Below, piece by piece: positions 16,180 through 19,014 of a stretch of DNA of 64,000 bases. Under the pieces are notes generated by a model. The model saw only the letters and a program-made list of their open reading frames with translations, was not told where the DNA came from and did not search any database. Each line of letters starts with the position of its first letter. Position 1 is the first letter of the stretch. The position numbers were made by a program, and so were the translations under genes. The stretch is from contig NC_009675.1 of the NCBI RefSeq assembly GCF_000017505.1, positions 1,364,001-1,428,000 on the forward strand. The letters are read 5' to 3'. This DNA comes from Anaeromyxobacter sp. Fw109-5. GTDB taxonomy: Bacteria > Myxococcota > Myxococcia > Myxococcales > Anaeromyxobacteraceae.

Positions 16180-19014
16180 ATGCCCGTCTGCGATCACTGC
16201 CTGCTCGAGTTCCCCGCGCGCGAGGCGGTCGAGGCGGAGATCGGCGGCGAGCCGCGCCTGTTCTGCTGCGCCGGCTGCCGCGGCGTGTTCGAGCTCGTGC
16301 ACGGGGAGGGGCTCGGCGCCTACTACGAGACGCGGCGCTGGGACGGCCCGGGCGCGCCGGTGAAGCCCGACGCCTTCGGGCCTGACCTGTCCGCGTTCCG
16401 CGAGGCGGTGCGCCACGGCGAGGGGGGCGACGAGGTCGAGGTCTACGTCGACGGCATCCGCTGCGCCTCCTGCGTGTGGCTCAACGAGCGGCTCCTCTCG
16501 CGCACGCCCGGCGTCACCTTCGCGCGCGTGAACTACGCGACGCACCGGGCCCGGGTGCGCTGGGATCCCGCCCGCGCGGACCTCGAGACGGTGCTCGGCC
16601 GCATCCGCTCCGCGGGCTACGCGCCGAAGCCGTGGTCCGACAGCGAGCAGGCCGCGGCGCGCCGGGCGGAGGAGAAGGACCTCCTCGTCCGGCTGGGGAC
16701 CGCTGGGTTCCTGGCCTCGCAGCTCATGATCTACCAGGCGGCGCTCTACGCCGGGTACTTCCAGGGGATCGACGCGGGGACGCGCCGGCTCATGGAGTGG
16801 ATCTCGCTCGGCCTCACGCTGCCGGTCTTCTTCTACGCGGGGGCGTCCTTCCTCCGCGCGACGGCGAGCGGGCTGCGGCACCTGCGCTTCAACATGGACT
16901 CGCTCGTCGTGTTCGGGTCCGGCGCGGCGCTCGCCTACTCCGTCTACCAGATGTCCCGAGGCGGCGAGGTGTACTTCGACACCGCGGCCATGATCCCGAC
17001 GCTCGTCCTCGTCGGGCGCTTCGTCGAGGCGGGCGCGAAGGGGCGGGCCTCGGAGGCGGTGGCGCGGCTCGCCCGCCTCGCGCCGCGCGAGGCGCGCAGG
17101 CTCGAGCGTCGCGGCGACGGGCGCGAGGAGCCGCGCAGCGTGCCGGTCGCGGAGCTGCGAGCCGGAGATCGCGTCTCGATCGTGCCGGGCGAGCGCGTCC
17201 CCGTCGACGGCTCGGTCCTCGACGGCACCTCCGACGTGGACGAGTCGCTCGTCACGGGGGAGTCGCGGCCGGTCGCGAAGGGGGCGGGCGCGTCGGTCAT
17301 CGGGGGGACCGTGAACGGCACCGGCTCGCTCGTCGTGGAGGTGACGCGGACCGGGAAGGACACCGTCCTCGCGGGCATCGTCCGCGCCGTCGAGGAGGCC
17401 CAGACCGCGAAGCCGCGCATCCAGGCGGTCGCGGACCGGGTGGTGGGAGTCTTCGTGCCGGCCATGCTCGTCCTGGCGGCGGCGACGCTCGCCTACTGGC
17501 TGGCGCGCGGCGCGCCCCTGGACCGGGCGATCATGACCGGCATCTCGGTGGTGGTGATCGCCTGCCCCTGCGCGCTCGGGCTCGCCACGCCGATCGCGGT
17601 GATCGTCTCCACCGGGCTCGCGACGCAGCGGGGACTCCTCGTGAAGGGCGGCGACGTGGTCGAGCGCGCCGGGCGCGCCACGGACGTGCTGCTCGACAAG
17701 ACCGGCACCGTCACGCGAGGGCGGCCGGTCCTGCGAGAGGTGGCCGTGCTCGACGCGGCGCTCGCGTCGGAGGACGCGCTGGCGCTCGCGGCGGCGGTGG
17801 AGTCGCGGAGCGAGCACCACGTGGGCCGCGCCATCGCCGAGGCCGCCCGGGCGCTGCCCGAGGCGGCCGCCGTGGAGGTGGAGGGGTTCCGGGCGGTGCC
17901 GGGGAGGGGAGTGGTCGCGACGGTCCGAGCGACCCCGACCCCGACCCCGACCGCGACCCCGACCGCGACGCCGACCCCGACCCCGACCCCGACCCCGACC
18001 CCGACCCCGACCCCGACCCCGACCCCGACCTCGACCTCGACCCCGACCCCGACCCCGACCCCGACCCCGACCGCGACGCCGACCCCGACCCCGACCCCGA
18101 CCCCGACCCCGACCCCGACCCCGACCCCGACCCCGACCCCGACCCCGACCTCGACCTCGACCTCGACCTCGACCCCGACCCCGACCCCGACCCCGACCTC
18201 GACCCCGACCTCGACCCCGACCTCGACCTCGACCTCGACCTCGACCTCGACCTCGACCGCGACCTCGACCTCGACCCCGACCTCGACCTCGACCTCGACC
18301 TCGACCGCGACCTCGACCTCGACCTCGCGAGCGGTTCTCATCGGCAACCGCGCCCTCCTCGCGGATCACGGGATCGCCCTGCCGCCGGACGCCGACGCCG
18401 CCGGCCGCGCGATCGAGGCGCGCGGCGAGACGGTCGCGTTCCTCGCGATCGACGGCGCGCCCGCCGCGCTCTTCGCGATCGCGGACGTGGTGCGCGACGA
18501 GGCGCCGGAGGCGATCGCGCGCCTGCGCGCGCTCGGGCTCCGCGTCGCCATCGTGAGCGGCGACACGCGGGTGACGACCGAGGCCGTGGCGGAGGGGCTC
18601 GGCGTCGAGTCCGTCGCAGAGGCCAGCCCCGTGGAGAAGCGCGCGGTCGTGGCGCGGCTCCAGGCGGAGGGTCGCCGCGTGCTCTTCGCCGGCGATGGGA
18701 TCAACGACGCCCCGGCGCTCACGCAGGCCGACGTGGGCGCGGCGATGGGGCGCGGGACCGACGTGACGATGGAGAGCGCCGACGCGGTGCTGGTCCGCGA
18801 CGACCTCCGGCTCGTCCCCGATCTCGTCCGGCTCTCGCGCCGGACCTACGCCGTCATCCGGCAGAACGTCTTCTGGGCGTTCTTCTACAACGTGGTGGCG
18901 ATCCCGCTCGCGATGGCCGGCGTCCTCCACCCCATCGTGGCGGCCGGCGCGATGGCGGCGAGCTCCTTGTTCGTGGTGCTGAACTCGGTGCGCCTGCGCG
19001 GGGCGCTGGGCTAG
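16180..19014 (+). CDS. ccoI: CcoI copper-transporting P-type ATPase with Thr-Pro repeat insertion
   Basis: 944 residues; without the insertion it would be about 812, normal for CcoI/FixI. An N-terminal metal-binding zone has Cys-4, Cys-7 and FCCAGC at 29-33. An HMA domain has GIRCASC (95-98). Then come the membrane CPC motif (IACPCALG near 462), DKTGT (phosphorylated Asp about 506), the ATP-binding N-domain, and GDGIND near 838. Residues 585-716 are a Thr-Pro/Ser/Ala tract encoded by 66 hexamers. It lies between the GxG motif (VPGRGV) and the VLIGN motif of the N-domain, both of which contact ATP in relatives. The usual HP dipeptide (SEHP) reads SEHH (546-547). The protein exports Cu(I) to the periplasm for the CuB centre. 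The frame stays open through the repeat, so the gene looks intact. Confidence 0.93.
17932..18327 (+). repeat. Hexanucleotide tandem array (66 units) within ccoI
   Basis: 66 consecutive six-base units of the form ACC-NCG with no interruption: 38 carry CCG (Pro), 23 TCG (Ser) and 5 GCG (Ala). Two units use ACG for Thr, both directly after a GCG. Pro units dominate the 5-prime half and Ser units the 3-prime half. All six reading frames are open across the array. Because the unit is two codons, gain or loss of units never shifts the frame. Confidence 0.98.

Follow-up and report, generated by a model that had tools for sequence, protein, structure and literature searches.

The ccoI gene of Anaeromyxobacter sp. 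Fw109-5, encoding a copper P1B-type ATPase, carries 66 in-frame hexamers (the number read in one assembly), which form a 132-residue Thr-Pro/Ser/Ala tract in the ATP-binding domain. This tract is real and, as DNA, ordinary for this genome. It is probably one coding member of a lineage-specific dispersed microsatellite, (CGACC[C/T/G])n, which grew in place and is tolerated where its peptide is inert.

The window analysed is a stretch of 64,000 nucleotides, and its relevant features are collected in Table 1. Over the ccoI array, TRF reported a period of 6, 65.8 copies and 93% matches (17930-18324). The longest uninterrupted CGACCN run here has 41 units. Such runs do not exceed two units in the rest of the window, and 200 first-order resamplings of the window yielded none longer than 3 units. 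The tract is free of stop codons within the ccoI product, and growth of the array leaves the frame intact because each unit equals two codons. The original prediction of 66 in-frame hexamers in an otherwise normal copper ATPase, with an unbroken frame, was thus confirmed by TRF, unit listing, translation and TIGR01511. A 30-base repeat in two copies (79% matches, TRF) is also present shortly 3' of the tract, at 18423-18481.

Table 1. Features of the ccoI region, in window coordinates.
Feature	Position	Strand	Evidence
COX1 family oxidase subunit (CcoN-type)	10516..11955	+	PF00115 356 bits
FixO / cytochrome c fusion	11964..12995	+	PF02433 211 bits, PF00034
FixG/CcoG-like ferredoxin protein (FixG_C/Fer4)	13447..14670	+	PF13746, PF11614
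FixH family protein	14664..15518 (open frame from 14664, start codon provisional)	+	PF05751 70 bits
DsbD_2 family membrane protein	15515..16177	+	PF13386 158 bits
ccoI, copper P1B-type ATPase, 944 residues	16180..19014	+	TIGR01511 518 bits vs cut-off 397; Pfam domains; cbb3 neighbours
DKTGT phosphorylation motif	17695..17709	+	sequence position; invariant in alignment
VPGRGV, GxG ATP-contact motif just 5' of tract	17896..17913	+	both glycines invariant in 45-row alignment
Hexamer array, 66 units CGACCN (64 exact, 2 CGACGC)	17930..18325	+	TRF, unit listing, resampling control
Array in codon register: 132-residue Thr-Pro/Ser/Ala tract, residues 585-716	17932..18327	+	translation; low-confidence disordered stretch in AlphaFold model
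VLIGN strand just 3' of tract	18334..18348	+	glycine nearly invariant in alignment
GDGIND hinge motif	18691..18708	+	G333, D334, G335, N337, D338 invariant, I336 nearly so (alignment)
FixS/CcoS cbb3 maturation protein	19024..19218	+	PF03597 68 bits

The P1B ATPase family score, together with the cbb3 gene neighbours, identifies the gene as CcoI. Profile search revealed HMA, E1-E2 ATPase and HAD domains, and in the genome-wide search the protein, with both halves, reached 519 bits to TIGR01511. Three further genes of the genome pass the copper P1B cut-off; hence, a paralogue could in principle share part of the CcoI job. The protein retains all invariant or nearly invariant columns of an alignment with its homologues: DKTGT, the N-domain Glu and His, GxG and GDGIND.

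This alignment comprises 45 P/N fragments of 71, those in which both flanking motifs were found (A. oryzae lies outside the 71). In it, the tract takes the place of a tight turn that links the strand following GxG to the strand ending in GN. Measured on the alignment columns from the second GxG glycine to the later glycine, the turn is 12 residues long in 41 of the 45 rows; it is longer in L048 (16), in A. terrae and A. soli (26 each) and in CcoI of Fw109-5 (144). An AlphaFold model built on the 45 rows has a mean pLDDT of 80.5. Ten-residue blocks outside the tract score 88 to 98, with most of the domain above 90; within the tract the values begin at 80, drop to about 40 and recover to 73 at the end, and strands 72-79 and 211-217 border it. 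The N/P domain fold is thus predicted to be kept intact, with the tract disordered. Foldseek returned as best matches of the model the CopA and CopB ATP-binding domains, the copper P1B ATPase 4bbj and ATP7B. The placement of the tract between the GxG and VLIGN motifs, as originally described, is therefore borne out by the alignment, the turn lengths and the modelled strands.

The original prediction also put a long flexible loop of human ATP7B at about the same place, and this proved correct. The phmmer match to ATP7B chain 7xuk_A begins immediately after the tract core, where fragment residue 211 is paired with chain residue 1143. According to a 2011 study, the dynamic loop of ATP7B spans A1114-T1143, between beta3 and beta4; deletion of residues 1121-1137 abolished ATP and Mg-ATP binding, and this loop is stated to be confined to ATP7A/B (PMC3203118). 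No sequence likeness between the tract and this loop was seen.

Among the relatives, A. terrae SG22 (88% in the best segment) carries the stub PTPTSTST at the tract site of CcoI and A. soli SG29 (87%, best segment) the stub PTPTSTP, corresponding at the DNA level to 4 units in A. terrae, including one CGACGT, and 3 in A. soli. A. oryzae, PSR-1 and six others among the matches listed have no stub there. With one genome per species, the comparison of repeat number proposed earlier thus gave 66, 4 and 3 units, a difference in whole two-codon steps. Absence of the array from close relatives, which together with its collapse in raw reads would have pointed to an artefact, holds for most of those compared; the two nearest carry the stubs, and A. 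terrae is rich in arrays elsewhere.

The dN/dS ratios (Nei-Gojobori) of ccoI are 0.17 on the 5' side of the tract and 0.12 on the 3' side against A. terrae, and 0.19 and 0.26 against A. soli. From these values, CcoI overall is judged to be still under purifying selection. In the first 60 codons 3' of the tract, noisy estimates of 0.33 (A. terrae) and 0.67 (A. soli) were obtained. The ratio between A. terrae and A. soli over these codons is 0.41, so that constraint is weaker there in all three pairs. This weaker constraint, noisy as it is, counts against the preferred explanation, tempered by the value of the third pair.

The array is widespread in the genome. A search of its single contig (5,277,990 bases) for six consecutive units, (CGACCN)x6, gave 1172 matches, 528 on the plus and 644 on the minus strand; the reversed control gave 0. 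The same search was positive in 14 of 60 genomes, own included: A. terrae (G003) has 937 matches, G009 207, G011 198, G008 124, G014 61, G004 40, A. soli (G006) 39, G019 15, G023 11, G007 6 and G012 1, and, outside the family, G031 has 25 and G040 12. No match was found in G001, G002 and G005, which make up three of the eight remaining members of the genus. Sites were defined as at least 5 exact units, with segments within 120 bases merged, and were read in a partial set of stretches picked mostly for array or HNH-element content. In this set, 55 of the 66 sites of Fw109-5 are intergenic, 10 are in genes and 1 touches a gene end; A. terrae has 21 intergenic and 12 in-gene sites (33 read), and A. 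soli 2 and 6 (8 read). The coding share of the Fw109-5 genome is 88%, estimated in 15 evenly spaced 20-kb samples by a simple gene caller that relies on codon usage and was run with the codons of the arrays masked.

The sixth base of the unit, over 78 segments and 1537 units, is C in 711, T in 428, G in 385 and A in 13. By a rougher count, A is rare both in genes (1/268) and between genes (14/1471). This near absence goes unexplained by simple slippage and point mutation, and it counts against the preferred explanation. Several general drivers were considered and discarded. A replichore-strand bias, an idea prompted by a plus-strand-only listing, was rejected on finding both strands interleaved. 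A G-quadruplex as common driver was rejected too, many units having T or G as the sixth base and so being without long G runs on the opposite strand. REP-like repeats as array seed were not used: the motif count was weak (5/66 sites and 1 beside an element), and the minus-strand flanks had been cut imprecisely. No description of this array or of the HNH element was found in the literature, as judged by titles and the starts of abstracts.

The clearest regularity concerns the arrays within genes. Each of the 28 in-gene arrays read in the three species (10 in Fw109-5, 12 in A. terrae, 6 in A. soli) runs along the coding strand and is translated as Thr-Pro/Ser/Ala, although the array is open in all six frames. 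The other five would encode Arg-Pro, Asp-Pro/Leu/Arg, Arg/Gly-Ser, Gly-Arg or Val-Glu/Gly/Ala. The 28 sites represent 21 gene families; the ABC-like, RlmE-like and kinase-like families recur in all three species and one more in two, so the sites are not 28 independent events. Besides CcoI, the hosts in Fw109-5 are nine genes of unrelated jobs with the same peptide: KsgA and, named by eye, a CheA-like, an AMIN/secretin-like, two ABC-type, an RlmE-like, a kinase-like, a TolB-like and a zinc-finger/TPR-like gene. The first view of the tract, as a device of CcoI, is therefore unsupported: an array found at dozens of mostly intergenic sites and in nine unrelated genes indicates a process that acts on DNA throughout the genome, with protein tolerance as its filter. 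At several in-gene sites (L136, L147, L116 and L118), the array adjoins translated interspersed repeats (peptides such as RPEPVEGRA, HPERS and SRGT), and some intergenic arrays do likewise.

In KsgA (TIGR00755 210 bits, cut-off 171), the profile match is split into two stretches around a tract of 34 units, 32 of them exact, just before NLPY (L150; G000 4442714-4442916). At this site, KsgA of A. terrae has one CGACC, and in A. soli 31 bases separate the two matching halves, compared with 214 in the Fw109-5 query. Judged by these orthologues, the KsgA array has followed the same course as that of CcoI.

Comparison of the array neighbourhoods revealed E1, an element of about 1.86 kb that is present in many copies and encodes an HNH protein (PF01844 24.7 bits, cut-off 21.4). 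In the stretches examined, 29 matches were found, fragments included (L124:1853-3725 and 28 further ones in G000). Its inverted end motif, TCATTCRTCACATC, occurs 35 times in the genome. E1 sits inside CGACCN arrays, nearly always in one orientation: at least two CGACC were found within 48 bases outside 18 of 21 intact left ends (GGTCG outside 1) and, by the same measure, outside 20 of 23 intact right ends (GGTCG outside 1). One copy (G000 505928) lies in an array of reverse orientation. Some copies have only 2-3 array units on a side, and E1 in Fw109-5 seems to use arrays or shorter precursors. Searched with one open frame, E1 gave no transposase match in Pfam or NCBIfam. Identity of the HNH protein with the RNA-guided nuclease IscB was rejected, the match reaching 20.5 bits against a cut-off of 175 and covering the HNH stretch only.

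A general origin of the arrays from the HNH element, whether it carries them in or generates them, was likewise rejected. Despite the many array matches of A. terrae, none of 8 homologues of the element in this species and none of 11 in A. soli, among the matches listed, abut an array of at least 3 units; in two of these 19 stretches, an array lies about 1 and 2 kb away. Arrays thus occur in the sister species without abutting copies and do not depend on E1. In A. terrae, the homologues at L243-L249 have similar inverted ends, and some are found in a GGGGGCTGCGCCC-type repeat, not in CGACCN arrays, as if the lineages of the element differed in the repeat that they occupy. A further element of about 1.36 kb, E2, carries genes for two four-helix proteins of the 23S_rRNA_IVP type, one on each strand (PF05635 51.9 and 39.3 bits, cut-off 33.8). 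It lies between CGACCN arrays at L145:1974-3337 (G000 3592473-3593836), with similar pieces at L123, L125, L149 and L151 and, in A. terrae, at L173 and L182. Insertion of elements into a pre-existing orthologous array is unsupported at L145/L175, where the A. terrae arrays are on the opposite strand. At L182/L156, A. terrae has arrays and an E2-like element against a few bases between genes in Fw109-5, an arrangement that does not tell the order of events.

The order of units within the ccoI array bears on its origin. It is blocky, with 23 unit changes, a value reached in 0/300 shuffles, and a 12-unit block repeats 18 units apart (1/300 shuffles). This pattern fits slippage and block duplication in place. 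The stubs found at one place in both sister species suggest that a few-unit stub arose in the N-domain turn before Fw109-5 diverged from A. terrae and A. soli. To judge by the unit pattern, this stub would then have reached 66 units in Fw109-5 through slippage during replication and the duplication of internal blocks. The frame rule and the model suggest how the tract survived: its frame, out of six, gives an uncharged, disordered Thr-Pro/Ser/Ala chain, and the turn tolerates insertion. Purifying selection on both halves indicates that the enzyme probably stays functional, and any effect of the tract on ATP binding would be secondary.

The original prediction saw the tract as a length-tunable regulatory loop like that of the ATP7B N-domain, in which slippage would modulate the supply of copper to the cbb3 oxidase but not abolish it. 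Such a role is unlikely. The tract does occupy the turn of the ATP7B loop, whose shortening abolished ATP binding (PMC3203118), and its length varies between species by whole units. Against this, the peptide recurs in nine unrelated genes and the array at 55 intergenic sites, a 12-residue turn suffices in most aligned homologues (41/45), and the two loops show no visible sequence likeness. Despite the striking siting, tolerance is the better account, given that the arrays obey the frame rule and have so many other hosts. It is quite unlikely, too, that the array was copied in from another one by gene conversion or insertion, or that it is the coding remnant of a site of the HNH element. About half of the sites adjoin that element (34/66, or 28/60 without six sites seen only via the element), so arrays take part in recombination; however, none of the 10 in-gene sites adjoins it, the stubs share one place in two sister species, and the block pattern fits growth in place. 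An error of assembly or sequencing is a very improbable source of the repeat length. A single assembly of the species was examined, and arrays sit at contig ends in the A. terrae draft, but the frame is kept over 396 bases, the orthologous place bears stubs, and 65 other array sites, with differing lengths, were read in this one-contig genome.

Growth in place of a tolerated microsatellite therefore remains the preferred reading of the ccoI tract. For the arrays of Fw109-5 as a whole, a further proposal is made tentatively, at somewhat less than even chance: CGACCN arrays may be the oriented insertion target of an HNH mobile element, which would gain safe intergenic sites from their spread and maybe drive their growth by nicking and repair. 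The in-gene arrays would then be unoccupied coding relatives, kept in one inert frame. Both the mobility of E1 and an action of its HNH protein on the arrays are putative.

These arrays offer a clear natural case of a repeat process at the DNA level that introduces one neutral peptide into proteins of unrelated kinds; in a copper pump and in an rRNA methyltransferase, the peptide even lies inside the catalytic domain. The six-way frame filter is countable, with 28/28 sites in 21 gene families. Moreover, a natural series of 0, 3, 4 and 66 units exists at a loop whose role in human ATP7B is argued over, and the effect of loop length on ATP binding thereby becomes testable. The oriented nesting of the HNH element in arrays offers a starting point for the study of bacterial mobile DNA that targets repeats.

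Like the N-domain loop of ATP7B/ATP7A, the CcoI tract follows the GxG strand of a copper P1B ATPase and precedes the strand that leads to the conserved Asn; the human loop has 30 residues, the tract 132 of low-complexity Thr-Pro/Ser/Ala. Unlike the ATP7B/ATP7A loop, the CcoI-type tract recurs in unrelated proteins of Fw109-5, and its function is putative. Simple-sequence-repeat contingency loci of bacteria, such as those of Haemophilus influenzae and Helicobacter pylori, also place a length-prone short tandem repeat in a gene, and the ccoI array, with 66 units and 93% matches, is a long, near-perfect repeat of this kind. In contrast to these loci, its unit of six preserves the frame and gives no on/off switch; besides, the long arrays of Fw109-5 are mostly intergenic and belong to one repeat family chromosome-wide, compared here between species only. 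Thr-Pro and Pro-rich disordered linkers between domains are inert and extended, and the CcoI tract resembles them as a peptide; the tracts of Fw109-5 are, however, also found within catalytic-domain folds (CcoI, KsgA), besides between domains. Elements that target repeats include the telomere-repeat retrotransposons of insects and the REP-targeting insertion sequences. E1 is similar to them in having copies in one kind of repeat and in a fixed orientation, whereas it is an HNH-protein element, without a transposase match for the one open frame searched, in a bacterial hexamer microsatellite.
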